NCBI GenBank assembly: GCA_964058805.1 | Contig: CAXKVV010000914.1 | Coordinates: forward strand, 1-46,399 | Length of the DNA stretch: 46,399 nt | Direction of reading: 5' to 3' | DNA from: Schoenoplectus triqueter | Taxonomy: Eukaryota; Streptophyta; Magnoliopsida; Poales; Cyperaceae | Part shown: in pieces, positions 6,446 to 46,399 of the stretch | Layout: the number at the start of each line of letters is the position of its first letter | Position numbering within the stretch: position 1 is the stretch's first letter | The notes under the pieces: generated by a model | The model's input: the letters and a program-made list of their open reading frames with translations, nothing else | Told to the model about the DNA's origin: nothing | Databases searched by the model: none | Made by a program: the position numbers and the translations under genes

Positions 6446-6517
6446 GGGTCCATAGCTCAGTGGTAGAGCAATTGACTGCAGATCAATAGGTCACCGGTTC
6501 GAACCCGGTTGGGCCCT
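6446..6517 (+). tRNA. tRNA-Cys (anticodon GCA)
   Basis: A complete 72-base cloverleaf. The acceptor stem GGGTCCA pairs with TGGGCCC through one T-G wobble and leaves discriminator T, as expected for cysteine. The D arm has AGCTCAGTGGTAGAGC, which is also the A box. The anticodon loop CTGCAGA carries GCA, and the T arm CCGGTTCGAACCCGG is the B box. There is no intron. The CCA tail is not encoded, as is usual for nuclear genes. A CAA motif at about -10 (in TTGTCAAAAC) matches the plant Pol III start preference. Confidence 0.96.
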
Positions 6518-8159: not shown

Positions 8160-12625
<4,466 letters not shown>

Positions 12626-12654
12626 GGAGGATCAACGCAGCTTCCAATTTCGAA

Positions 12655-19360: not shown

Positions 19361-19759
19361 ATGCCTTCCTCAAAGAAGGGGATCCAAGGACCAAGGCCGA
19401 ACCCCCTCAGAATAACAAAAGATTTACAAAAGGCCAAAAAGCCCTCCGAAACACCGAGCCGACCACCAACAATTTTTTACGAGCATACTCCGAAGGTCGT
19501 ACATGCGAGCCCACAAGAGTTTATGGGAGTGGTTCAACAATTGACCGGCCGATCTTCGACGCCTGACAGCGGTAGAGGGTTTTTCCAGAGTCAAGATCAG
19601 ACGGATGGAAGTGATGATGCCATCGGTTCGGTCGATGATTCGATGCTTCTTCTCACTTTGGGCAGGCACCAGAATTTAGAGAAAGCCGGTTCAAGTATTT
19701 CTCCTAGCCTTCAATTTTCTTCTCCTAGCGTTGTTCAATATAGTTTCCAGAAGCCGTAG
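19361..19759 (+). CDS. VQ-motif protein (VQ8-like)
   Basis: A single-exon gene of 132 residues, which is usual for plant VQ proteins (mostly intronless and short). The defining motif FxxxVQxLTG is present at 54-63 (F54, V58, Q59, L61, T62, G63). The N-terminal GIQGPRPNPLRI (7-18) followed by a basic stretch and PPTIFYEHTPKVVH (35-48) resembles the Arabidopsis VQ8/VQ1/VQ10 type as I recall it. VQ proteins are nuclear or plastid cofactors that bind WRKY factors through this motif. A Ser/Thr-rich C-terminus and a short acidic segment (about 83-94) follow. The ATG at 19361 is chosen because the frame upstream has only a TTG after a stop at 19331-19333. Three W-boxes lie upstream, suggesting control by WRKY factors. 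Family assignment is firm; the subtype is tentative. Confidence 0.9.
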   Translation: MPSSKKGIQGPRPNPLRITKDLQKAKKPSETPSRPPTIFYEHTPKVVHASPQEFMGVVQQLTGRSSTPDSGRGFFQSQDQTDGSDDAIGSVDDSMLLLTLGRHQNLEKAGSSISPSLQFSSPSVVQYSFQKP

Positions 19760-21946: not shown

Positions 21947-22159
21947 TTACTTGGTTGACCAAAAAGTATGACATACACTTAGCTCCTCTTCATTTCTCAG
22001 GTGCTCGCCATTATCAGCTTGGTGGTGCACGACAATCACGTCTTCTTTTCTGCAATTCTGGGTCAATCTGACAGCAACCCTAAAGCCCAGTGGCATATCT
22101 GAAATGAACACCACAACCCCATCTCCTCCCTTGTTGTTCTCAGTGATTCTTGCTAACAT
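21947..22159 (-). CDS. Unrecognised exon-like open stretch
   Basis: A 70-residue frame with ordinary protein composition, unlike the AT-driven ORFs nearby: it contains NKGGDGVVVFISDMPLGF, then RKEDVIVVHHQAD and LRNEEEL. A possible 3' splice site (AATCCAG near 22167) precedes it and a GTATGT donor-like sequence follows LRNEEELS near 21980, so it may be an internal exon of a live or dead gene. I do not recognise the family, and no partner exon could be joined with confidence. GC-rich DNA at 22480-22680 on the same strand ends in a donor-like AAG-GTAACTT and could be an upstream untranslated exon. The state of the gene is unknown. Confidence 0.35.
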   Translation of the reverse strand: MLARITENNKGGDGVVVFISDMPLGFRVAVRLTQNCRKEDVIVVHHQADNGEHLRNEEELSVCHTFWSTK

Positions 22160-23280
22160 TGACTTTATGACTGGATTTTCATATTATGTCATTTCTGCAA
22201 CCGGCTTCAGCTAGATTTTGTTTCTGGCATGAGCCGCGAGCAGATCAAGTGAGTGGATTGTGAGATAGAATTGACCTGCTCCCAACATATTAAGCATCAT
22301 TGTAATGTGAATACATGGATTAGTAGCTGATTTGTCTCAGAACCAGTGTGTTATTCTTTTGAAGCACAAAAAACCACCTAACTCATGCAGGTACTATTTT
22401 ATGTATGTTAGATCTTTACTGTTATGGTCATGATCCTCTAGTGAACTCTAAATATAAATTAAGTTACCTTGATCTATGCTGTCAGTCTTCCAGAGAGACA
22501 CAACCCCGTTGATCACCAGACTCCTTTAGCCTTCCAGCGATCTTTCTCTAATCCGATGGAGTGATTGAGAGGACCGGCGTCAGACAGTTTCTTCTCTTCT
22601 GGAACAGTGTTAAGAGAGAGAGAGATATCTGGATCTGTTGAAAATGAAAGGGTGCCAGAAAGTGGAGAAATGAGAGATGTTAAAAATCAACTGTATCTCT
22701 GCATATATATGGACGTCCATATAACAGAGTGCAGTTATACCTTAACAGGTCCATATCAGATCCAGATTCTCTCTTAATGGATTCGCTACTTAATCAGAAA
22801 GCTGTCTATGGTTGTGTTCTCCAGGGACCATCACTAAATCATAAAATCATTAATACGCATTCTACACATTAAAGGGCTCACTTCTCATGATATATAATAA
22901 ACCCGATACAGAATTTGATCACTTCATTATGGGTATAATTTGACAGTCCATTATATAATGTATTTATTACATATAAGTCCATACATATTGTAATTAATAA
23001 TAATTAATTCCAACAATGTATATGTACCAGTTTAGGGCCAAATCAACAATTCAGAAATGTAAACATGGGAAATGTAAGCTCTAACTCTTAGCTGTTTATA
23101 CTCAATCATAATCTGAAAATATTATCTCCAGTTTGGAGAGAACAAAGGAAATTCTCTTATCCTAGATACCATTACATAATACAACTTTTTCCATACATAA
23201 ATTGCATTTCATTGTGGAATTAAATGAATTTAAGATAGGTGATTATGAAAAAGGAGAAATCTAAAGTCGAAATAAAGCGG
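22160..23280. other. No gene established
   Basis: The (GA)n-rich stretch near 22613-22630, CT-rich on the minus strand, and the donor-like site near 22467 could belong to a leader of the exon-like stretch at 21947-22159. Nothing firmer is visible. Confidence 0.3.
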
Positions 23281-29189: not shown

Positions 29190-31092
29190 TCGTCGGGTCC
29201 AATTTTCATGTTTTGAGCTCTCGGACTCGTTTTCGGCGGTACTAAGGGCGCCAAACCCACTTTTTAGGTTTTGCGCTCCCGAACTCATTTTCGGCGGTAC
29301 CGAGGACGCCGAACCCCATTTTCATGTTTTGCGCTTTCGAACTCATTTTCGGCGGTATCGAGGGCGTCGGGCCCACTTTTGATGTTTTCCGCTCTCGAAC
29401 TCAATTTCGCGGTATCGAGAGTGTTGGGCCCAATTTTCATTTTTGCGGTACCGAGGGCACCAGGTTAATTTTTCATGTTTTGCGCTTCATGACTCATTTC
29501 GGCGGTACCGAGTGCTCCCGGCCTAGTTTTCAACGGTATCGAGGGCGCTAGGTCCAACTTTCATGTTTTGTGCTACCGAATTAGTTTTCGGCGGTACCGA
29601 CGGCGTCGGGCTTAATTTTCATTTTTTGCGCTCTAGGGCTCGTTTTGGGCAGTAACGTGAGCGTCAGATCCACTTTTCATGTTTTTCGCTCCCGGACTCA
29701 TTTCCAGCGGTATCGAGGGAGTCGAGTCCACTTTTCATGTTTTGCACTCCCTAGCTCATTTTTGGTGGTATCGAGGGCGTCAGGCCCACTTTTCATGTTT
29801 TACGCTCCTAAGCTCGTTTTCGGCGGTACCGCGGGCGCTGGGTCCACTTTTCATATTTCGCGCTCTTAGACTCATTTTCAGTTGTACTGAGGGCGCCAGG
29901 CCAGTTTTGATATTTTACGCTCCTGGGTTCATTTTCTGCGGTACCGGGGGCGTCGAGTCCACTTTTGATGTTTTGCGTTCTTATACTCGCCGGTGGTATC
30001 GAGGGCATCAAACCCACTTTTCATGTTCTGCGCTCCCGAACTCATTTTCGATGATACTGAGGGTGTTAGGCCCTCTTTTCATGTTTTGCGCTCCTGGACT
30101 CATTTTCGGCGGTACTGAGATTACCGGGCCTAGTTTTCATGTTCTGGGCTCTCCTACTTATTTTCGACGGTACTAAGGGCGTCGAGCCCACTTTTCATAT
30201 TTTAGGCTCGCGGGCTTATTTTCGGCGGTACCGAGGGCGTAGTGTCTAATTTTCATGTTTTGCGGTCCGAGACTCATTTTCGACGGTATCGAGGGCGTCA
30301 GGTCCAGTTTTATGCTCCCGGACTCATTTTCGATGGTACCGAGGGCATCGAGCCCAGTTTTCATGTTTTGCACTCTTAGGCTTATTTTCGGCGGTACCGA
30401 GGGCGTAGTGCCTAATTATCATGTTTTGTGGTCCGAGACTCATTTTCGACGGTATCGAGGGCGTCGGGTCCAGTTTTACGCTCTCAGACTCATTTTCGAT
30501 GGTACCGAGGGCACCGGGCCCAATTTTCATGTTTTGCGCCCTCAGGCTCGTTTTCGGGTGCATATCCTCTATAGTACTGTATTTTTTACAGTGGTCAGTT
30601 CAATCAATCTCAACCATTCAAAACGCTCAGCGCGGATCTTGATGTTGCCCGGGTACTATAGCAATTGCAGAAAATATGCCCAATATACACTTTAAAGTTG
30701 TTGCCCACTGTAGAGGATGTGAACTCCTCATTTTCAGCAGTATTGAGGGCATCAGACCCACTTTTCATGGTTTGCACTCACAGACTCGTTTTTGGCGGTA
30801 CTGAAGGCTTCAGGCCCACTTTTCTTATTTTACGCTCCCGGAATCACTTTCAGCGATACCAAGGGCGCTGAACCCACTTTTCATGTTTTGGGCTCCCGGA
30901 CTCTTTTTCGGCGGTATCGGTGTCGCCGAATTTATTTTTCATGTTTTACGCTCCCGGACTCATTTTTGGCAGTACCGAGGGCGTCAGACCCACTTTTAAT
31001 GTCATGCGCTCCTGAACTAATTTCAGACTGTACCGAGGGTGTCAGTCCCACTTTTCATGTTTTGGGCTGCCGGACTCGTTTCGGGCGGTACC
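29190..31092. repeat. 58-bp tandem repeat array (minisatellite)
   Basis: About 30 units of 55-60 bp, most exactly 57-58 bp; a typical unit contains CTCATTTTCGGCGGTACCGA, then GGGCGTCGGGCCCACTTTTC, then ATGTTTTGCGCTCCCGGA. The starts of successive TTTTCATG motifs fall at 29203, 29261, 29319, 29377, 29434 and so on; a few units are truncated (around 29434-29560). GC content is well above the flanks, and many units keep a GGTACC site. The array is broken by a small element at 30561-30721 and ends inside a unit at 31092, where the copia 3' LTR begins. The long ORFs on both strands (the longest 165 codons) are by-products of the repeat, not genes. Confidence 0.95.
30561..30721. mobile_element. Small inverted-repeat element inserted in the 58-bp array
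   Basis: A 161-bp non-repeat segment between array units, bounded by CATATCCTCTATAGT and CACTGTAGAGGATGTG, which are inverse copies matching at 13 of the first 15 positions. It has no ORF. The array on both sides carries the same part of the unit (TCGTTTTCGG before, TCATTTTCAG after), consistent with either a target duplication or different units at the break. Confidence 0.65.
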
Positions 31093-32766
31093 TATTGGGA
31101 TTTTATTGGGTGTGTAACTAGTATATAAGTTCAAAAAATTTCATCTCAAACACTAAAAGGATCTTGTATGTGACTTAACTGAACCAAATATAAGTTATAA
31201 ACTAAGTTAGTATACTTTTGAAGCGTGCTTGAGTCACCGAAAGGGCTAAAAATGATCGGGAGACGCGCACGACACCGAGAGACCAACCGAGATCTCCTCC
31301 AATGGTATCCACCAAGAACAACCAATAAATGTCATCTCAACATTTTGCTAGGGTAATTGAGAGTGTTCTCCTTGATCCTCTGGTCCTTCTCCACGAATTC
31401 TAACTCTTAGAGGTGGTGGAAAGGGTTCTCAACATGAGATAATCAAAACGAGTGCGACAAAAATTCAGCAGAACTTTCGCGCTTAAAAAAACAACTCAAC
31501 TCGTTAGGTTTCTACGAGGGGAGATACCCTTATATAACCTATCCAACAGGTGGAAGGGTGTTTTCCCACGTTTCAGAAGAACACCCACTAATTTTGGACA
31601 ACCAAAACATGTCGGTTTCTAAAAATAGCCTGAACTTTTCTTAATTAACTAAGAGAAAGTGGAGATAATAAAAATAGTGGATCATGCTTCATTTTTCATA
31701 TCTTACTCTCTCAAAATAGCCAAAAAGAGTGCAGTAGTGGAGAGTGGGTGTCTAATTTTAGTCATATCAACATATTACTAAATTTAGAATTTCCCGAAAT
31801 AGCATAATTTTCACTTAATAATGCCATGTCAATATACTATTAAAAAACGGGATATGAACTTTCTTAAAACTCTTTCATTTGAATATTATTAAACACTTTA
31901 ATAAGTTCAATAATTATTTATCTCATGTTATTTGATATGTTCAACACATTAACAGATCAAAAAATATTTATGGGCTATGTTTTTATACGGTTTGACCCTT
32001 TGGGACCTATATACACTTAGCAATGAGATTAAAACACTTTTAATCATCATAGATTACAAGCGGTACCTAGCAATATAGATATAATGTATGCTATGATCCT
32101 AGACGACGATAATCGTCCAGTGCTTAATTCATGTCACATGATATCCAGAACAGTGCAAAATAAGAACGTGTCATTCTTGCACTATATTCTTTATTTAGGG
32201 GTGCCCAATTTTGATACCATCGCTCACATCAACAAACGAGAGGGACATCGGTATTCTTGATTTGTACTTCTTCTTCATATAAAAGATATATATCGAGATA
32301 GAATATGTATGGCTGCCAATACAGACAATATTTGATAATATCCACAAATGTAAATCATTTGCATAAGAATAACACTTATCTCATACCTAAGAATTAGCAA
32401 GCAAATAAAATTATAATGACACAAACACAATCCTTATAGTATTTTATTACAGGTCAAGTCCAATAACATGACAACACATCATTTGTGTAATTGAGCCGAT
32501 AACACTTATCGTATGATTTGTGAAACACAATCATCACTCAACTTACACACTAATCTTAGTTAATTATTGTTCCTAGGTAATTAATAAATTAGAGATATTT
32601 TATACTTATTATTAATTAATATATATATATTTCACAATTGAGTCCAACTCAATATATAAATGATAAACAACTCAAGCACCAAATGATATATCATATATAG
32701 TCATTCTAATATATAAAATAAGTATAATCATCATATGATTGGCTGTAGATCACTCTAACACTAACA
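31093..32766 (-). mobile_element. 3' LTR of the minus-strand copia element
   Basis: Read on the minus strand this starts at 32766 with TGTTAGTG right after a polypurine tract, and ends at 31093 in a CCCAATA-type terminus at the edge of the 58-bp array. Its 1674 bases nearly equal the 1673 of the solo LTR at 33492-35164. The two share GCCAATCA near the start, GGATTGTGTTTGTGTCAT and GTATGAGAT, so they belong to one family although well diverged. The first host bases to the left are GTACC of the satellite unit. Confidence 0.8.
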
Positions 32767-32780
32767 GTCTCCCCATTGAG
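32767..32780 (-). other. Polypurine tract of the copia element
   Basis: On the minus strand CAATGGGGAGAC directly precedes the 3' LTR start TGTTAG. This is the usual plus-strand priming site in Ty1/copia elements. Confidence 0.7.
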
Positions 32781-33185
32781 CTAGAGTCAATCTCACACAC
32801 ATCAACATGCATAAAAGAAATATCTAACCAAATAGTAATCTCGAGTACATCACATGCACATGACTCAAATTTCACTGCCAATCCCGCATGAACCGGATGC
32901 CCATACCTGTTTGGAACTCTTTCAACTCACAACATCACCATTGAGTACGAACACAAATCATAATTGTGATCTTAGATCATCACAATCGGTCTGAAAACTA
33001 GCATCATTGTAACCCCTTACAACGACCTCAGTTTCACCTCTATAGACAAGAAACATATCCTTAGTCCTTCTCAAGTACTTCAGGATAGTTTTTACTACAG
33101 TTCAATGTGTGATACCTGGATTAGCTTGGTGCCAACTTATCACACTCAAAGCGTATGATACGTTTGGACGAGTACAAATCATAGC

Positions 33186-33461
33186 CTACATGATAGATCC
33201 AATTGCTGAAGCATATGGTATCTTCTTCATGGTCTCAATCTCAGCATTCGTCGAAGGACAATGCTTCTTGTCGAGATCAATGCCATGTGACATGGGTAAG
33301 TTTTCTTTCTTAGAATTCTGCATGTTAAACTTCTTTAACACATTATCAATATATATAGTCTGACTTAATCCTATAAGTCTTTGAGATCTATCCCTATAGA
33401 TCTTGATGTCCAAAACATAGATTGTCTCGCTTAAGTCTTTCATTGAGAATATTTTCTTCAA
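33186..33461 (-). pseudogene. Copia reverse transcriptase end / RNase H start (remnant)
   Basis: A 91-codon open piece with the conserved FSMKDLSETIYVLDIKIYRD block that follows the reverse-transcriptase active site in copia polyproteins, then LSQTIYIDNVLKKFNM and PYASAIGSIM near its end. The frame closes at 33186 with a stop; degenerate RNase H sequence (a CTRPNVSYALSV-like motif) continues with further stops toward 32800. Its upstream part lies on the far side of the solo LTR. Confidence 0.9.
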
Positions 33462-33491
33462 TGATGACTTAACCTCATCCGAGATGAGAAT

Positions 33492-35164
33492 TATTAGTTT
33501 TATGTCCTATGAGCCAATCAAATATTGATGGTTTTATATTTTATTCATGCATTGGATGATTTTATCATTTTGTTCCTTGAGTATTTTATTATAAATAGAC
33601 CATTTGGGTTGATGATTTGGAATTGCAAAACTATATTAAATAAATTAATAAATAATAAATACTCTAAATATCCCTAAATAAGATAATTAGCAGGAACACT
33701 AATTATCGGAGAAGATTAGTATGTGGATTAAAAGATGATCAGGTTCTGCAGATCATATGATAAGGCGTTATCAATTTAATCACATAAATAGCTAATAGCG
33801 ATTAGTTTATTGGACATAACCCAAATGAAATAATGAATGGATTGTGTTTGTGTCATCATTTTGTTTCATTAGTATTTTGAATTCTATGTATGAGATGGTT
33901 CATTTTTTTCACATAAAGATTGATCATAGTGAGTATTTTCTAACGCTGACCGTAACAGGCAGTCATAAGGATCATGCTTCTTTGTTCATGAATTGTGTAG
34001 GAATTAAGTTGTTCATCAAGAATACTATGTCTCTCATAATGAGTGATGATATCTTTGGGCCCCTTGATGAAGTATGATTGTAACTATGCAATATATATAG
34101 TTAAGTGATCAATTATATACAATCAGTTTTGGATCAAGAAATGAATAAATCGCAAGGATGACACATTCCTACATTGGATTATTCTTGATATCATGTGACA
34201 TAAGAATTAACACAATAAGAAATATATTTTCTTGTATAGGATCGTAATATTATAATGTAGATATTATTTGTGTCAATTGGGTAATCGTAATATGTTGCTA
34301 GATACCGCTTACGATTTGTAAAATTAAAAGGAGTTTTATTTTTATTGTCAACATAACATAGATCCTCCCGGATCACACCATATAGGCTATTAACTAACGT
34401 GACAAAATTCAGTCATAGAGATGACAACCTTAATCACTAATATGTGTAACATATTATAATATGAGAAATTAATTATTTGGGCCATAATAATTAATTGGAT
34501 TAATTGGGCCACAAATAATATATTGTTTGGGCCATAATAATTAATAGGACTAATTTGGCCACAAAACAATATGACCCATTGAAGGGGGCTGCCATGAGAA
34601 GAGAGAGAAAGACAAAAGTTATTTGATTGTATGAAAAGCAACAAATATGGTTGTATAAAAAGTTACAATAGCAATTAACCTTTTATCAAAAGTTGAAAAA
34701 GGTATAACTTTTTATTAATGAAAATATTTTGAAAGATCTCAAAATATGGGGATATAACCCCTTGGTTGTCCACCTCTCTCTCCATCCCATTTTTCTTCTT
34801 CTTGTTCTCTTATTTCTTGTTCTCATGTGTTGAGAAAAATCCAAAAAATTAAAGAGTTAATTTTGAAGGGTTGAAACCTTGATTAAGGAAAATACTAATT
34901 TGTTCTACTAGCATAGAACTATTAGTAGTTAGTTAATCCTATGTGGATACTTGGAGAGGCGTCATTCTTTTGGCGCTTGGGAAGATAGGAGAAGAGCTCA
35001 CAACCACCATCCTTGGAAGTCTACACCTTCGATTATGATATCGAAGGAGGTATGAGTTTCTTAACCCCTTTTCGGTTTAGTATAACTAGATAATAATGGA
35101 TCCTTGGTTGTTGCTTGTAAAATTTTTAAAATTTATACCATATGCATAACCTAAAATCCTAATA
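33492..35164 (+). mobile_element. Solo LTR nested in the copia element, opposite orientation
   Basis: A 1673-base segment with ends TATTAG and CTAATA (from an original TGTTAG...CTAACA type), flanked by a perfect 5-bp target duplication AGAAT at 33487-33491 and 35165-35169. The reverse-transcriptase reading frame of the host element stops at one side and resumes at the other once one AGAAT is discounted, proving insertion. There is no internal region, so it is a solo LTR left by recombination. It belongs to the same LTR family as 31093-32766 and 1-696. Confidence 0.93.
34476..34565 (+). repeat. 40-bp direct repeat within the solo LTR
   Basis: TTTGGGCCATAATAATTAAT, then ...GGCCACAAA, occurs at 34476-34515 and again at 34526-34565 with a few changes and a 50-base period. 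Confidence 0.85.
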
Positions 35165-36600
35165 AGAATGTCAATATCGATTAGCAATATGTCATTCACA
35201 TATAGAATGAGAAATACAATAATATTCCCACTGAATCGTTTATATACAGAAGGCTCTTCATCATATTTGATGAAGTCAAACTCTTTGATTTCTTTGTTAA
35301 AGCATTTGTTCCAACTCCTTGATGCTTACTTTAGTCTATAAATGGACCTCTTCAGCTTGCATACTTTGCTAGCGTTATTAGGATTTTTAAAACCCATCGA
35401 TTATGTCATGTATACATCCTCTTCTAAATCTCCATTTAGAAAAGAAATTTTGACATCAATTTTCCACATTTCATAATCATAAAAAGCGACAATTGCTAAC
35501 AAGATCCGAATTGATTTAAACATTGCCATGGGTGAGAAAGTCTCATCATAATCAACTCCTTGAATTTGTTTGAAACCTTTCGCAACTAGTCATGCCTTGT
35601 ATGTAGTTAAATTACCATCCATATCTAACTTCCGCTTGAAAACCTATTTATTTTCAATCGAACGAGCTCCTTCCGGGAGATCAATCAAGTTCTAAACTTG
35701 ATTATCGTACATAGACTGTATCTCAGATCACATGACTCTAAGTCATTATGCGGAGTCAGGCCGCACCATTGCTTCCGTATAGGTCAAATAATTCTCAGCA
35801 TCACATACCGATCCTTAATAAAGCCCCAATCATCTTTCAGGTGGATGACTTGATCTTGATGACCCGCGAAGTGCATGAGGCTCAGATGCTTCTTCCACAA
35901 CACCTTATGGAGCCGCATTTTGAATCATATCCTCATCACCATGAGAACTAGGTTTGGGAGTCCTACTCCCACTGGCCTCAACATCCATAGAAGGGATTAG
36001 AAGTCTCCACTGACATCACTCTCATGTGTAACTTAAATTTCTTCTAGTTGCACATTACTCTCACTACTTCCTCTTGTGAGAAACTTTCTCCAAGATACCA
36101 CATGTCTGGCAACAACTATCTTATTTTCAGACTTATAGTAAAAGTAGTACCCTTTAGTTTCCTAAGGATGTCCCACAAATATGCACGTATCAGACCTAAG
36201 ACTGAGTTTGTCAGACATCGATAGCTTGACATAAGCCTCACAACCCCAAATCTTGATAAAAGACACATTTAGAACTCTTTCAAATCATAACTCATATGGT
36301 GTCTTTTCTACGGACTTAGATGACACATGATTCAATATAAATACAGCAATTTCAAGTGCAAATCCCCAGAAAGAGCATGATAACTCAGTTTTGCTCATCA
36401 TAGAATGAACCATATCCAACAAGGTCTTATTCCTCCTCTCAGAGACACAATTTCATTGAGGTGTCCTGAAAAGAGTGAGATGTGAAACTATTCCATGTGC
36501 CTTTAGGTACCCCCTAAATTAATCGCTTAAGTATTCCCCACCTCGATCCATTATAAATTCTTTAATCTTCCTTTCGAGTTGGTTCTCAACTCCAGCCTTA
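35165..36600 (-). pseudogene. Copia reverse transcriptase and integrase C-terminal region (remnant)
   Basis: The active-site motif YVNDILLI is encoded at about 35181-35202, with the second position of the YVDD box changed to N. Further upstream on the strand, translated pieces recognisable as copia polyprotein (an SERRNKTLLDMVHSMMS-like integrase stretch near 36400, a KIWGCEAYVKL-like stretch near 36230) are interrupted by many stops in every frame. Confidence 0.8.
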
Positions 36601-36624
36601 AATTTGTTGAACTTTTCAAAGGAT

Positions 36625-36810
36625 TCAGACATATCTCATCAAGTAGACATAGCCATATCTACTGAAATCATCAATAAACGTGATAAAGTATCTCGATCCA
36701 TCTCTAGCATTTATACTCATAGAACCGCATACATCACTATGCACGAGTCCCAATAAGTCATTTGACCTTTCACCTTTCTTGGTAAAAGACGTCTTAGTCA
36801 TCTTACTCAA
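36625..36810 (-). pseudogene. Copia integrase core (remnant)
   Basis: A 61-codon open piece with LLGLVHSDVCGSM and YFITFIDDFSRYGYVYLM, which carry the first two Asp residues of the D,D-35-E integrase core. A zinc-finger-like HHRLGH with a CDSCL pair lies just upstream on the strand (36800-36920), but the stretch between protease and integrase contains stops. Confidence 0.9.
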
Positions 36811-37083
36811 TAAACATGAATCACATGTTGTTATACTAAATCAAAGCAACAAAGAAGTCCAACTCTTATAATTTCTTAATGCGCGTCTCATTTATATGAC
36901 CCAGACGGTGATGTCATATGAGAGTCTCACTCTCATGAGAAGATTGAAAAATTTTGTTATTAATATTAAGGACTTGATTATCTATTTTTAAAATATATAG
37001 ATCATTCACAACTTGAAAACTACCATAGAAAATACCATCTTTATAAAAAGGAAAAACATTGATCTTTAATAGAAAAGGTAAAA

Positions 37084-37323
37084 TCATCCATGTCCATATG
37101 AAATGGAAATAATATTTCTAGAAATAGAAGAAACAAAGTAAACACTACTAAGCTCTAAAATAAGTTCACTAGGTAATTGTAAATATAAATCTCCTACGGC
37201 AACAACAGTAACACTTGCTCCATTACCAATCCGGAGCTGCATCTCACCCTTCCCAAGCAATCTCTTATTCTTTAGTGCCTGCACATTTGAATAAATATGA
37301 GCACATGAACCGGTGTCCAACAC
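37084..37323 (-). pseudogene. Copia aspartic protease (remnant)
   Basis: The open piece starts around the protease motif LDTGSCAHI; the catalytic DTG is encoded at 37309-37317. The expected downstream LRIGNGASVTV and IISIS motifs of copia proteases follow. A stop upstream separates it from the zinc-knuckle frame, so the polyprotein is broken. Confidence 0.9.
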
Positions 37324-37418
37324 TCAGTCAGAAATAGAAGTAGCAAGGTTAATTTCAATACGAGTATACCTGAAGAAGAAGGGACATTCCCATTCATTTT
37401 GTCCTCCAGGAACTGAGG

Positions 37419-37460
37419 GCAATTACGTTTCCAATGTCTGCACTTTTTGCAGTAGAAACA
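37419..37460 (-). pseudogene. Gag zinc knuckle (CX2CX4HX4C)
   Basis: CFYCKKCRHWKRNC encodes a complete CCHC knuckle, the nucleic-acid-binding motif at the C-terminus of copia Gag. A basic Lys/Arg-rich stretch precedes it around 37520-37570. Confidence 0.92.
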
Positions 37461-37485
37461 CTCAACGTCGGAAACATCCTTGGAT

Positions 37486-38020
37486 TTAGAAGTGCTCGAA
37501 GTCATCACTTAAGCCTTCCCCCTTACCCTTACCCTTAGACTTGCGCTTAGAACGCTTCTTAATCTTCTTCCTGACCGAACTGACTGCGAGAACATTCCTA
37601 AATCCTTTGTTCATGTCCTCCTCAGCAGTCTTAAGCAAACCTAGCAACTCATCCAAGCTCTTTGACATTCCCATCATGTTATAATTCATAATGAATTTCG
37701 AATAGTGGGGAGATAATGATGCAAAAATGATGTTCGTAACTAGCTACGGGTCCCACTTGCAGCCTAGTTTCTCAAACTTACAGACTCATTATCGTGCATT
37801 GAGCACTTCATAAAGTGCTTTTATGAGATTGCACATCTCAGTTTGAGCCTTCTCTTGAAATATTTTCTTGAGTTGGTCCATTATGCCAAACGCACCACGA
37901 GTCTCGAACCTCTTCTGAAGCTCAGAACTCATAGTGGCAACCATCAGACATGAGACATCAAGATCATCATCTATGAACTTATTGTATTATCTCTGACAGA
38001 TTTCTCTGCCTTCTCACTTG
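37486..38020 (-). pseudogene. Copia Gag core (remnant)
   Basis: Pieces such as MSSELQKRFETRGAFGIMDQ (about 37880-37940) and the open frame 37486-37689 (SKSLDELLGLLKTAEEDMNK) match the UBN2-type Gag of copia elements as I recall it. Stops and frameshifts separate them. The N-terminus is lost toward 38100. Confidence 0.8.
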
Positions 38021-38100
38021 ATTTGTTAGGCGGGGCTTCAGTTAAGATGTATTTTTTTCTCGTGCCTCAAAACAATTTTGAGATAATGATGTCAATCCAT

Positions 38101-38554
38101 AAAATTTATTCCATCATATTTTATTTTTTCTTTGTCTAAGATAGAACGCAAGGAGAAAGAAGATTTTTTTGACATGATCTATAAATTAAAAGGTTTTGTG
38201 TTTTAGCTTATGTATAATTTATTTTATTTTATTAAAAATAAAACTCTCACTATAATTAATATTAAGTCCTGTATTTATAGTGAGTATAAGATCCCTATCT
38301 TCACTAAGACATAAACCAGCGGCAGCATGAAACTTAACTTAGCTATTTTAGGTAAGCAATAACTCGCTAATCACATCATGTGTGACTCTTGATTTCATTT
38401 CGAGCAGCCGATCTTAAGAAATAAAACTTCTCCCCAAAATGCAAAACTGGGCCAGCGGCGGCATGAAATCCTGAATCACACACCGTCAAGTAAATCTCTC
38501 TATTTGAGATGACATGTCTGACAAGCCCCACTTCACCAAGGATAAAATGCAGTG
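38101..38554. other. Junction segment between copia remnant and satellite
   Basis: Unassigned DNA. It contains a 10-bp inverted pair CTCACTATAA / TTATAGTGAG (38246-38255 and 38275-38284) that on the minus strand includes a TATAAATA box, and a 17-bp motif CCAGCGGCRGCATGAAA repeated at 38316-38332 and 38452-38468. The ORF at 38376-38576 has no recognised domain. It could be part of another transposon's leader or LTR. Confidence 0.4.
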
Positions 38555-39548
38555 TCATTAATTTTTCACAAAGCATAAGTAATATGCATTAAAAACAACT
38601 GTTTAAACGAGTTATTTGAGTTTTCAAAAAAATTAGTTGCATAACTACACATAATTTCTTATAAATTAAAATAATTACTCCTAAATATGCCTATTGTAAA
38701 ATTTTCTAATTAAAACTTCAATATGAATATTCTACGACACTAATTTTGCACAAAACATAAGTAAGATGCATTCAAACTGCTGTTTAAACAAGTTGTTTGA
38801 CCTTTTCAAATTTTTTGGCCGTACAACTGCACATAACTTCCTATAAATTAATATAATTACTCTTAATTACGTAATTTATAAGATTTTTCAATTAACACTT
38901 TGATATGAATATTCTATGATACTAATTTTTCATAAAACATAATTAAGATGCATTAGAAACTGCTATTTAAAAAAATTGTTTGAGTTTTCAATATTTTTTC
39001 CCCCATAACTATACATAATTTTGTAAAAATTAATATAACTACTCCTAATTACGCCTATTATAAAGTTGTCCAATTAAAACTTCGATATGAATATTCTATA
39101 GCGCTAATTTTGTACACAACATAAGTAAGATGCGTTAAAAATTGTCATTTAAACAAGTTATTTGGTTTTATGAAAAAAGTTTGCCGCACAACAACACATA
39201 ATTTTATGCAAATTAAAATAATTACTCCTCATGATGCCTATTATAAGATTTTCCAATTAAAACTTCGATATGGATATTCCATGATGCCAATTTTGCGCGA
39301 AATATAAGTTAGATGCATTAAAAATTGTTGTTTAAACAAATTTTTTGAGTTTTTCATAATTTTTGGCCGCATAACTACATATAATTTCATGCAAATTAAT
39401 ACACTTACTCCTAATTAGGCCTATTATAAATTTTTTTAATTAAAACATCGACATGATTATTTTATGATGCTAATATTGCATAAAATAAAAGTAAGATGCG
39501 TTAAAAGCTGCTATTTAAACAAGTTGTTTGGCATTATAAAAATTTATG
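38555..39548. repeat. Edge of the satellite array, diverged single monomers
   Basis: About five and a half tandem monomers of 180-184 bp, with equivalent positions at 38817, 39000, 39182, 39366 and 39549. A typical monomer contains CATAACTACACATAATTTC, TAATTACTCCTAATTATGCC, then CATAAGTAAGATGCATTA and GTTTAAACAAGTTGTTTGAG. These monomers differ more from each other than the monomers further right do between repeats, and show no higher-order period. Confidence 0.95.
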
Positions 39549-42500
39549 GCAGCAAAACTACACATAATTTCGAGTGAATTAAGATAATTGCTCCTAATTA
39601 TGTCTATAATAAGATAGTTCAATTAACACTTCAAAATGAATATTTTAGGACATTATTTTTCCTCAAAACATAAGTTAGATGCATTAGACACTGCTATTTT
39701 AAGAAGTTAAGTGTTTCAACATTTTGGGCCCCATAACTACATATAATTTCGTAAAAATTAATATAATTACTCCTAATTATGTCTATTAAAATATTAGCCA
39801 ATTAACACTTTGATATGGACATTCTACGACACTAATTTGGCACAAGACATAAGTAGGATGCATTAAAAACAGCTGTTTCAACAAGTTATTTGTGTTTTTC
39901 AAATAATTTGGCCGCATAAGTACACATAATTTCATGCAAATTAATATAATAACTCCTAACTATGCCTATTATAAAATTTTCTAATTAACACTTCGATATG
40001 AATATCCTACGACACTAATTTTTCATAAAACATAAGTAAGATATATTAGAAACTGCTGATTAAACAAGTTATTTAACATTTATAACATTTTTTGACTCAT
40101 AACCACACATAATTTCATGAAAATTAATATAATTACTCCTAATTATACCTATTAGAATATTATCCAATTAACACTCTGATATGAACACTGTACGACACAA
40201 ATTTTGCATAAAAGATTCATAAAAATAGTTTCTTAAAAATTGTTGGCCGCATAACTACAAATAATTTCCTGAAAATTAATATAATTACTCATAATTATGC
40301 CTATTATATATCATTGTTCAATTAAAACTTAGATAAAAATATTCTATGATGCTAATTTTGCATAGAATATAAGTAATTTGCATTAGAAACTGTTGTTTAA
40401 ACAAGTTGTTTAAGTTTTTCAACATTTTTTGCTTCAAAACTACACATAATTTTGAGTGAATTAAGATAATTGTTTCTAATTATGTCTATAATAAGATAGT
40501 TCAATTAACACTTCAAAATGAATATTTTAGGGCATTATTTTTCCTCAAAACATAAGTTAGATGCATTAGAAACTGCTATTTTAAGAAGTTAAGTGTTTCA
40601 ACATTTTTGGCCCCATAACTACATATAATTTCGTAAAAATAAATATAATTACTCCTAATTATGTCTGTTAAAATATTAGCTAATTAACACTTTGATATGA
40701 ACATTCTACGACACTAATTTCGCACAAGACATAAGTAAGAAGCATTAAAAACAGCTGTTTCAACAAGTTATTTGTGTTTTTCAAACAATTTGGACCCATA
40801 AGTATACATAATTTCATGCAAATTAATATAATAACTCCTAACTATGTCTATTATAAGATTTTTCAATTAACACTTTGATATTAATATCCTACGACACTAA
40901 TTTTTCATAAAACATAAGTAAGATATATTAGAAACTGCTGATTAAACAAGTTGTTTAACATTTTTAACATTTTTTGACTCATAATAACACATAATTTCAT
41001 GAAAATTAAAATAATTACTAATAATTATACCTATTAGAATATTATACAATTAAAACTCTGATGTGAACACTGTACGGCACAAATTCTGCACAAAAGATGC
41101 ATTAAAAATAGTTTTTTAAACAAATTGTTTAAGTTTTTTAAAAATTATAGGCCGCATAACTACAAATAATTTCCTAAAAATTAATATAATTACTCCTAAT
41201 TATGCCTATTATATATCATTGTTCAATTCAGACTTAGATACAAATATTGTATGATGCTAATTTTGCATATAGAATATAAGTGATTTGCATTAGAAACTGT
41301 TATTTAAACAAGTTGTTTAAGTTTTTCAAAATTTTTTACTTCAAAACTACACATAATTTCGAGTGAATTAAGATAATTGCTCCTAATTATGTCTATAATA
41401 AGATAGTTCAATTAACACCTCAAAATGAATATTTTAGGGCATTATTTTTCCTCAAAACATAAGTTAGATGCATTAGAAACTGCTATTTTAAGAAGTTGAG
41501 TGTTTCAATATTTTTGGCCCAATAACTACATATGATTTCGTAAAAATTAATATAATCACTCTTAATTATGTCTATTAAAATATTAGCCAATTAACACTTT
41601 GATATGAACATTCTACGATACTAATTTCGCACAGGACATAAGTAGGATGCATTAAAAACAGCTGTTTCAACAAGTTATTTGTGTTTTTCAAACAATTTGG
41701 CCGCATAAGTACACATAATTTCATTCAAAATAATATAATAACTCTTAACTATGCCTATTATAAGATTTTCCAATTAACACTTCGATATGAATATCCTACG
41801 ACACTATTTTTTCTTAAAACATAAGTAAGATATATTAGAAACTGCTGTTTAAACAAGTTGTTAAACATTTTTAACATTTTTTGACTCATAACCACACATA
41901 ATTTCATGAAAATTAATATAATTAGTCCTAATTATTCATATTAGAAAATTATCCAATTAACACTATGATATGAACACTGTACGGCACAAATTTTGCACAA
42001 AAGATTCATTAAAAACAGTTTTTTAAACAAAATGTTTGAGATTTTTGAAAATTGTTGGCCGCATAACTACAAATAATTTCATGAAAATAAATATAATTAC
42101 TCCTAATTATGCCTATTATGTGATTGTTCAATTAAAACATAGATAAAAATATTCTATGAGGCTAATGTTTCACAGAATATAAATAATTTGATCAGAAAGT
42201 GTTGTTTCAACAAGTTGTTTAAGTTTTTCAACATTTTTTGCTTCAAAACTACACATAATTTCGAGTGAATTAAGATAATTACTCGTAATCATATCTATAA
42301 TAAGATAGTTTAATTAACACTTAAAAATGAATATTTTAGGGCATTATTTTTCCTCAAAACACAAGTTAGATGCATTAGAAACTGCTATTTTAGGAAGTTA
42401 AGTGTTTCAACATTTTTGGCCCCATAACTACATATAATTTCGTAAAAATTAATATAATTACTCCTAATTATGCCTATTAAAATATTAGCCAATTAACACT

Positions 42501-45500
42501 TTGATATGAACATTCTACGACAATAATTTCTCACAAGACATAAGTAGGATGCATTAAAAACAGTTGTTTCAACAAGTTATTTGTGTTTTTCAAATAATTT
42601 GGCCGCATAAGTACACATAATTTCATGAAAATTAATATAATAACTCCTAACTATGCCTATTATAAGATTTTCCAATTAAACCTTCGATATGTATATCCTA
42701 CGACACTCATTTTTCATAAAACATAAGTAAGATATATTAGAAATTGCTGTTTAAACAAATTGTTTAACATTTTTAAAATTTTTTGACTCATAACCACACA
42801 TAATTTCGTGAAAATTAATATAATTACTCCTAATTATACCTATTAGAATATTATCCAATTAACACTCTGATTTGAACACGGTACGACACAAATTTTGCAC
42901 AAAAGATTCATTAAAAATAGTTTTTTAAACAAATTGTTTGAGTTTTTTAAAAATAGTTGGCCGCATAACTACAAATAATTTTCTGAAAATTAATATAATT
43001 ACTCATAATTATGCCTATTATATATCATTGTTCAATTAAAAATTAGATAAAATATTCTATGATGCTAATTTTGCATAGAATAAAAGTAATTGGCATTAGA
43101 AACTGTTGTTTAAACAAGTTGTTTAAGTTTATCAACATTTTTTGCTTCAAAACTACACATAATTTCGAGTGACTTAAGATAATTACTCGTAATCATATCT
43201 ATAATAAGATAGTTTAATTAACACTTCAAAATGAATATTTTAGGGCATTATTTTTCCTCAAAACACAAGTTAGATGCATTAGAAACTGCTATTTTTGGAA
43301 GTTAAGTGTTTCAACATTTTTGGCCCCATAACTACATATAATTTCGTAAAAATTAATATAATTACTCCTAATTATGCCTATTAAAATATTAGCCAATTAA
43401 CACTTTGATATGAACATTCTACGACACTAATTTCTCACAAGACATAAGTAGGATGCATTAAAAACAGTTGTTTCAACAAGTTATTTGAGTTTTTCAAACA
43501 ATTTGGCTGTATAAGTACACATAATTTCATGAAAATTAATATAATAACTCCTAACTATGCCTATTATAAGATTTTCCAATTAAACCTTCGATATGTATAT
43601 CCTACGACACTCATTTTTCATAAAACATAAGTAAGATATATTAGAAATTGCTGTTTAAACAAATTGTTTAACATTTTTAAAATTTTTTGACTCATAACCA
43701 CACATAATTTCGTGAAAATTAATATAATTACTCCTAATTATACCTATTAGAATATTATCCAATTAACACTCTGATTTGAACACTGTACGACACAAATTTT
43801 GCACAAAAGATTCATTAAAAATAGTTTTTTAAACAAATTGTTTGAGTTTTTTAAAAATAGTTGGCCGCATAACTACTAATAATTTTCTGAAAATTAATAT
43901 AATTACTCATAATTATGCCTATTATATATCATTGTTCAATTAAAAATTAGATAAAAATATTCTATGATGCTAATTTTGCATAGAATATAAGTAATTTGCA
44001 TTAGAAACTGTTGTTTAAACAAGTTGTTTAAGTTTTTCAACATTTTTTGCTTCAAAACTACACATAATTTCGAGTGAATTAAGATAATTGCTCCTAATTA
44101 TGTCTATAATAAGATAGTCCAATTAACACTTCAAAATGAATATTTTAGGGCATTATTTTTCCTCAAAACATAAGTTAGATGCATTAGAAACTGCTATTTT
44201 AAGAAGTTAAGTGTTTCAACATTTTTGGCCCCATAACTACATATAATTTCGTAAAAATTAATATAATTACTCCTAATTATGTCTATTAAAATATTAGCCA
44301 ATTAACACTTTGATATGAACATTCTACGACACTAATTTGGCACAAGACATAAGTAGGATGCATTAAAAAACATCTGTCTCAACAAGTAATTTGTGTTTTC
44401 CAAAAAATTTAGCCACATAAGTACACATAATTTCATGCAAATTAATATAATAACTCCTAATTATGCATATTATAAGATTTTCCAATTAACACTTCGACAT
44501 GAATATCCTACGATACTAATTTCTCATAAAACATAAGTAGGATTTATTAGAAACTGCTGATTAAACAAGTTGTTTAACATTTTTAACATTTTTTGACTCA
44601 TAATAACACATAATTTCATGCAAATTAATATAATTACTCATAATTATACCTATTAGAATATTATCTAATTAACACTCTGATATGAACACTGTACGGCACA
44701 AATTCTGCACAAAAGATGCATTAAAAACAGTTTTATATACAAATTGTTTGAGTTTTTTGAAAATTGTTGGCCTCATAACTACAGATAATTTCCTGAAAAT
44801 TAATATAATTACTCCTAATTATGCCTATTATATGATTGTTCAATTAAAACATTGATAAAAATATTCTATGAGGCTAATGTTTCACAGAATATAAATAATT
44901 TGATCAGAAAGTGTTGTTTCAACAAGTTGTTTAAGTTTTTCAACATTTTTTTGCTTCAAAACTACACATAATTTCGAGTGAATTAAGATAATTACTCGTA
45001 ATCATATCTATAATAAGATAGTTTAATTAACACTTCAAAATGAATATTTTAGGGCATTATTTTTCCTCAAAACACAAGTTAGATGCATTAGAAACTGCTA
45101 TTTTAGAAAGTTAAGTGTTTCAACATTTTTGGCCCCATAACTACATATAATTTTGTAAAAATTAATATAATTACTCCTAATTATGCCTATTAAAATATTA
45201 GCCAATTAACACTTTGATATGAACATTCTACGACACTAATTTGGCACAAGACATAAGTAGGATGCATTAAAAACAGCTGTTTCAACAAGTTATTTGTGTT
45301 TTTTCAAACAATTTGGCTGCATAAGTACGCATAATTTCATGCAAATTAATATAATAACTCCTAACTATGCCTATTATAAGATTTTCCAATTAACACTTCG
45401 ATATGAATATCCTACGACACTCATTTTTCATAAAACATAAGTAAGATATTTTAGAAACTGCTGTTTAAATAAGTTGTTTAACAATTTTTGACTCATAACC

Positions 45501-46399
45501 ACACATAATCGTGAAAATTAATATAATTACTCCTAATTATACCTATTAGAATATTATCCAATTAACACTCTGATATGTACACTGTACGACACATATTTTG
45601 CATAAAAGATTCATTAAAAATAGTTTTATAAACAAATTGTTTGAGTTTTTTAAAAATTGTTGGCTGCATAACCACAAATAATTTCCTGAAAATTAATATA
45701 ATTACTCATAATTATGCCTATTATATATCATTGTTCAATTAAAACTTAGATAAAAATATTCTATGATGCTAATTTTGCAAAGAATATAAGTAATTTGCAT
45801 TAGAAATTGTTGTTTAAACAAGTTGTTTAAGTTTTTCAACATTTTTTGCTTCAAAACTACACACAATTTCGAGTGAGTTAAGATAATTGCTCCTAATTAT
45901 GTCTATAATAATATAGTTCAATTAACACTTCAAAATGAATATTTTAGGGCATTATTTTTCCTCAAAACATATGTTAGATGCATTAGAAACTGCTATTTTA
46001 AGAAGTTTAGTGTTTCAACATTTTTGGCCCCATAACTACATATAATTTTGTAAAAATTAATGTAATTACTCCTAATTATGCCAATTAAAATATTAACCAA
46101 TTAACACTTTGATATGAGCATCCTACGACACTAATTTCGCACAAGACATAAGTAGGATGCATTAAAAACAGCTGTTTCAACAAGTTATTTGTGTTTTTCA
46201 AACATTTTGGCCGCATATGTACACATAATTTCATGCAAATTAATATAATAACTCCTAATTATGCCTATGATAATATTTTCCAATTAACACTTCGATATGA
46301 ATATCCTACGACACTAATTATTTATAAAATATAAGTAAGATATATTAGAAAATGCTGATTAAACAAGTTGTTTAATATTTTTAACATTTTTTGACTCAT
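39549..46399. repeat. Satellite with 5-monomer higher-order repeat of about 904 bp
   Basis: Five monomer types of about 181 bp recur in fixed order. Landmarks are: type 1, CGAGTGAATT and TTTTCCTCAAAACA; type 2, GGCCCCATAACTACATATAA and GCCAATTAACACTTTGATAT; type 3, GCATAAGTACACATAATTTC and AACTCCTAACTATG; type 4, GACTCATAACCACACATAAT and ACCTATTAGAATATTATC; type 5, TATATATCATTGTTCAATTA. The type-1 landmark falls at 39571, 40453, 41360, 42262, 43166, 44071, 44975 and 45870, giving spacings of 882, 907, 902, 904, 905, 904 and 895. The two short spacings are explained by small deletions (around 40210 and 45480). Seven full units and a partial eighth are seen; the array continues past the window end. 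It is AT-rich and has no coding content. Confidence 0.96.

Follow-up and report, generated by a model that had tools for sequence, protein, structure and literature searches.

The window, the whole stretch of DNA that was analysed, is a complete contig of 46,399 bp (C892, CAXKVV010000914.1) in the Schoenoplectus triqueter assembly (GCA_964058805.1). It contains genes, transposon fragments and tandem repeats. By protein similarity, a CDPK gene occupies positions 8761-12631, with the first residues at 12,631 and reading downwards; its N-terminal 112 residues match the protein of Carex littledalei at 73%, that of Rhynchospora pubera at 67% and that of Juncus effusus at 47%. A VQ-motif protein (Pfam PF05678) is encoded at 19,361-19,759, with 79% identity to R. 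pubera and 60% to J. effusus, against about 40% for grasses (no more than 42% for any listed grass protein aligned over most of its length). The two proteins together place the plant in the sedge family, Cyperaceae. The J. effusus counterparts of both genes carry consecutive locus tags (LUZ60_005176, LUZ60_005177) and the two are neighbours in the window too, forming a small conserved gene block. Close copies of the CDPK and VQ proteins (98-99%) were also found in JGI contigs. A tRNA gene is present at 6446-6517 (Rfam RF00005, 72.6 bits), and a minus-strand frame at 21950-22183 gives a UPF0113 PUA-domain match (26.4 bits), being probably an exon of another gene.

Two kinds of repeated sequence precede the array that is our main subject. 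A GC-richer tandem repeat of 58 bp is found at 29,199-31,092, with 50,100 matches in the genome (up to 3 mismatches) and 0 for the controls. Its 29-bp halves look related by eye, recalling the 29-31 bp satellites of Carex, and the same repeat adjoins an array of the ~182-bp satellite described below on another contig (C44). On the minus strand, Ty1-copia fragments at 32961-37986 stop a short way from where the satellite starts. One of them, from the reverse transcriptase, reaches 29.7 bits, just under the Pfam cut-off of 31.6; the others were identified by eye, and a search for an LTR pair flanking the remnant (31,501-38,600) found none.

From 38,547 to 46,397 the window consists of ~182-bp monomers, as delimited by a profile search with a profile built from the array itself, and TRF places a tandem repeat of 183 bp at 38,559-46,373. 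Self-comparison of the window gives peaks at lags of 1809, 2713 and 904. On the forward strand, between 39,576 and 46,397, there are 38 monomers of ~181 bp belonging to five types in a fixed cyclic order, with a unit of 904 bp. Seven whole units (39,576-45,903, with pairwise identity of 88.8-98.2% and a mean of 91.6%) are followed by part of an eighth. The first copies of the types lie at 39576..39756 (type 1, 8 copies, mean identity 0.949), 39755..39939 (type 2, 8 copies, 0.937), 39936..40122 (type 3, 8 copies, one of them cut by the contig end, 0.882), 40119..40274 (type 4, 7 copies, 0.887) and 40271..40454 (type 5, 7 copies, 0.923), all on the plus strand. The first copy of type 4 has 156 bp and the other six have 179 bp.

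From 40,119 on, mean monomer identity is 91-92% at offsets of 5, 10, 15 and 20, against 70-72% at the remaining offsets within 1-20. Considering all 38 monomers (39,576-46,397), the mean at offset 5 is 0.921, while the top mean at any offset from 1 to 10 was 0.815 in 2000 shuffles of the order. Means within types vary from 0.88 to 0.95, and the mean between types is 0.71, with a maximum of 0.79. In a FastTree phylogeny each of the types 1 to 5 is monophyletic (support of 1.0, 0.71, 0.996, 1.0 and 0.996, type 2 being the weakest), and the five clades follow each other in cyclic order. The first-pass annotation had proposed exactly such an array: a plant satellite of ~181-bp monomers in five types, forming a regular 5-mer higher-order repeat with a period of ~904 bp over at least seven units. 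These results bear it out. It had also noted that the array runs off the window, which is correct, since the window end is the contig end and the 5-mer array is cut there. Its extent needs one correction: the 5-mer register does begin at 39,576, but divergent monomers extend the array about 1 kb further to the left, to 38,547. This edge (38547..39573, plus strand, delimited by profile matches and identity) holds one partial and five whole divergent ~182-bp monomers that are out of the 5-mer register. Their best identity to other monomers of the window is 0.79-0.82, at offsets mostly not multiples of 5.

The satellite, which is AT-rich, occurs in many separate arrays of the source assembly (G000; 82.09 Mb, 2,086 contigs). 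Allowing up to 2 mismatches, an 18-mer of the monomer, ATAACTACACATAATTTC, has 9,599 matches and its reversed control 16. Exact matches number 121 for a 41-mer and 49 for a 57-mer, with 0 for the controls of both. The pooled match lists place the monomer on at least 43 contigs, so the family is genome-wide, and the outcome that would have spoken against the earlier annotation, an array at one short locus only, is not seen. We calibrated the 18-mer rule on fetched stretches holding 262 near-whole monomers, where it gives 197 matches, and therefore estimate ~12,800 monomers, 2.3 Mb or 2.8% of the assembly, a rough figure since these stretches were picked via consensus-like words. Of the 4 contigs scored for the 904-bp unit, the window alone contained it. 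A 35-mer of the satellite had no match in viral or prokaryote contig collections.

Units were read on 24 contigs, 3 of which repeat a unit from elsewhere (C8 with C79, 98.6%; C51 with C1690, 96%; C1147 with C566, 98%), leaving 21 arrays. The contigs were mostly picked through consensus words, so the sample favours homogenised arrays. The unit, taken as the period divided by 182.7, varies from 5 to 22 monomers: 5 in the window, 7 in C44 and C394, 10 in C1108 and C151, 14 in C1190, C315 and C134, 15 in C566, 16 in C1690 and C79, 17 in C20 and C116, 18 in C1354, C239 and C1895, 20 in C22, C272 and C354, 21 in C434 and 22 in C1505. In C239, C394, C315 and C1895 the profile count is one higher than the period count because the closing overlap adds a copy. 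Identity from unit to unit is far above that from monomer to monomer, with 0.92 against 0.71 in the window, and in-register identities of 1.00 in C79, 0.97 in C44, 0.94 in C51 and 0.93 in C1690 against medians of 0.75-0.77. The first 95-100 bp are repeated one period on at 99-100% in 15 of the 16 newly fetched contigs and at 94% in C151. Even distant units are nearly the same, with 99.8% in C79, 99.4% in C22 (over 700 bp) and 99.2-99.75% in C272. Two contigs depart from this pattern. In the 5 kb read from C277 (164500-169500) we found no internal repeat above 79%, this being a diverged array without a higher-order unit and perhaps a decayed one. C1260 is a mosaic with no clean unit, its best offset being 17 at an identity of only 0.84.

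The units are largely private. In 14 of the 21 arrays the best match to any other array does not exceed 89.5% (83.1% for the window), the three repeated contigs (the C8, C51 and C1147 pairings) having been left out of this count. The other 7 units have relatives of 91-95% and form three families (C44, C394 and C315; C22 and C354; C1690 and C1190), which indicates that the isolation of arrays is incomplete; families of related units are likewise found between chromosomes in human alpha satellite. Out-of-register monomers within one array (median identity by offset of 0.717-0.771) are about as unlike as monomers from different arrays (mean identity of 0.727-0.768), and thus homogenisation acts on the block and not on the monomer. 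C22 carries two arrays 598 kb apart with differing units, their sequences being 76.8% alike, which argues for units specific to the array and not to the chromosome. Divergent blocks have been amplified in register, array by array, at different ages.

The arrays are not uniform in size, those of C22 and C187 having ~20-24 kb and those of C239, C1505 and C79 being longer. In C22 (1.009 Mb), array 1 spans 376,289-396,239 (19.95 kb), with non-satellite sequence at both edges, and array 2 starts at 994,477 and continues at least as far as 999,969. The 598 kb between them is the single interval available for array spacing, and intervening arrays could have been missed. Array 2 opens with ~3 kb of divergent monomers (994.5-997.6 kb) ahead of the unit zone, where the sequence is then 99.9% identical to the C272 unit over 2,247 bp. 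Since C272 starts inside an array in the same orientation as array 2, C22 and C272 probably share one array. Judging by orientation, a single array may likewise extend across C8 and C79, with one flank on each, and another across C51 and C1690. The array of C187 (15,799-40,102, 24.3 kb) was measured at both edges, while matches extend over 7.4-56.3 kb in C239 and 0.4-56.4 kb in C1505. In C79 the satellite extends from the contig start to at least 131,985 (at least 132 kb), interrupted by non-satellite stretches, and this array seems to be broken by large insertions. The sequence is non-satellite at 60000-60400 and 110000-110400, the second resembling a Ty3/gypsy RNase H region by eye. Compared at two points, the C79 gaps are not alike, so they are not simple duplicates at those points. 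The higher-order unit continues close to the right edge in C272, C22 array 1 and C44, and unordered edge monomers are present in the window and in C22 array 2.

Four linked columns (correlations of 0.47-0.75), picked for linkage and not for alternation, sort 323 monomers into 198 of class A, 120 of class B and 5 undecided, although the classes are not sharply separated (silhouette of 0.08 for two clusters). Among these 323 monomers, B is next to B 19 times, against a mean of 41.1 and a minimum of 29 in 2000 shuffles. After overlap trimming, the count for the 21 arrays is again 19 (shuffled mean of 41.8, minimum of 26, 5000 shuffles), and A/B alternations number 201 (shuffled mean of 153.4, maximum of 185). 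The deficit of BB neighbours persists with one array per family (17 against a mean of 32.1 and a minimum of 20 in 5000 shuffles) and when C1505, which has a run of six B, is left out (12 against 27.9, minimum of 16). A 44-base consensus of class B had no exact match.

Human alpha satellite has a 171-bp monomer and chromosome-specific higher-order repeats. The sedge satellite is similar to it in having divergent monomers within the unit, near-identical units, divergent monomers at the edges of some arrays, unit families and two classes of monomer with a tendency to alternate (human features from PMC8997354 and PMC8122249); in human, A and B monomers usually alternate (PMC8997354). On the other hand, the arrays reported here have tens of kb and not megabases, belong to a plant with an unrelated sequence, and carry differing units on one chromosome segment. 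Among plants, switchgrass has higher-order units of 792, 886 and 1,131 bp, built, as those found here, from ~160-180-bp monomers, and such repeats are also known in sorghum (PMC4053949). Higher-order unit lengths in Papaver and Arabidopsis are reported to follow a negative exponential distribution (PMC11406182). In the sedge, by contrast, a single long unit prevails in every one of the 21 arrays that were read.

Closer at hand, Tyba is the 172-bp holocentromeric satellite of Rhynchospora (Cyperaceae). Both satellites come from the sedge family and have AT-rich monomers of nucleosome length in dispersed arrays; the two of ours in which both ends could be delimited have about 20 kb. They differ in the monomer, of ~182 bp in our case, and in the centromere role, including CENH3 association, which for our arrays is putative. 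Higher-order units are present in our arrays, while the excerpted descriptions of Tyba arrays mention none. In the little Tyba sequence compared with the satellite, two primers (PMC5049389) and a 50-base oligo, no similarity was detected: the scores of the primers were reached by 0.62 and 0.96 of 500 shuffles, and that of the oligo by 121 of 300. In Carex, the satellites CR1-CR3 (31, 29 and 30 bp, CR1 also with multiples of its period) share with ours the sedge family and the dispersed arrays but have much shorter monomers, and no ~182-bp family is given among the three largest satellites that the excerpted report lists for two Carex species (PMC9526063). Satellite-based holocentromeres are described in Rhynchospora, Luzula, Chionographis and others (PMC11538461, PMC10264360).

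We consider it slightly more likely than not that the ~182-bp arrays are holocentromere units, bearing CENH3, interspersed with genes and each homogenised locally. Sedges (Cyperaceae) are widely holocentric, and for a holocentric plant one would expect centromere arrays dispersed in large number instead of a single block on every chromosome. This role is favoured by the sedge lineage, the dispersal, the length of the monomer and the size of the C22 and C187 arrays, which is comparable to that of the Tyba arrays of R. breviuscula (median of 17,424 bp, with a median spacing of 354,850 bp; PMC10954556). Units of the Rhynchospora kind would be expected to have ~15-25 kb and to recur on each chromosome at regular intervals of ~350-400 kb; C22 array 1 and C187 fall in this size range, C239, C1505 and C79 exceed it, and the one interval, on C22, is 598 kb. 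Points against the role are the uneven array sizes, the absence of a clean unit in C277 and C1260, the 91-95% relatives of seven units, the more frequent 58-bp satellite, the 29-31 bp periods of the Carex satellites and the lack of similarity to the little Tyba sequence compared. Within Cyperaceae, moreover, Scirpus has been listed as monocentric and Bolboschoenus as mixed in character (PMC11583847). Each centromere unit would begin as diverged monomers, and local unequal exchange or break-induced replication, both proposed as models for human arrays (PMC8997354), could then amplify one block until it filled the array, leaving older unordered monomers behind at the edge. Homogenisation would hardly act between arrays, and because of this each array would drift to its own block. 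That each holocentromere unit evolves as its own small alpha-satellite-like array, with private or family-level units of 5-22 monomers and a primate-like alternation of A and B, is a proposal that we make tentatively and place somewhat short of an even chance.

Alternatively, the ~182-bp satellite could be dispersed but non-centromeric, its units recording local amplification only, with the holocentromere lying on the 58-bp GC-richer satellite, on another sequence or on no repeat at all. We regard this as a serious rival, though less probable than the centromere reading. The 58-bp satellite is the commoner one by its 50,100 matches (0 in the control), and the short Carex satellites CR1-CR3 are spread over all chromosomes and have been suggested to be possibly associated with centromeres (PMC9526063); the CDPK of the window is nearest to Carex. 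Against it, the ~182-bp monomer has nucleosome length, its array sizes are near those of Tyba, and it is homogenised much as known centromeric satellites are. The differing units between contigs could also be expected if the plant were effectively monocentric and each chromosome had its own higher-order repeat, as in human, and some arrays are indeed long (at least 132 kb in C79, with interruptions) and other sedge genera are called monocentric (PMC11583847). This is improbable when C22 alone carries two arrays with differing units ~600 kb apart and matches occur on 43 contigs or more in an assembly of 82 Mb. It is more improbable still that the regularity is an assembly artefact of collapsed or wrongly repeated units. 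Many arrays do lie at contig ends, but the units of the window differ mutually by ~8%, each keeping its own changes, and a C22 array has both edges in unique sequence inside a 1-Mb contig.

Plant higher-order repeats and satellite-based holocentromeres are already known. We found no report of array-specific long units on dispersed arrays in the open-licence literature; the main Rhynchospora papers lie outside that search and may describe Tyba arrays in such terms. Most work on why centromere satellites form higher-order repeats concerns primates, where a chromosome has about one active array. Should the many small, separate arrays of this plant genome each show the process at its own age, models such as unequal exchange, break-induced replication and centromere drive could be tested on replicates within one species. 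If these arrays are holocentromere units, they would give sedge holocentromeres a second satellite family, and the alternation of A and B would represent convergence, to be explained without CENP-B as known in mammals. If each unit also evolves on its own, a single genome would offer dozens of independent replicates of centromere satellite evolution at all stages, with C277 as a decayed example, the window (92%) as an old one and C79 (99.8%) as a fresh one.
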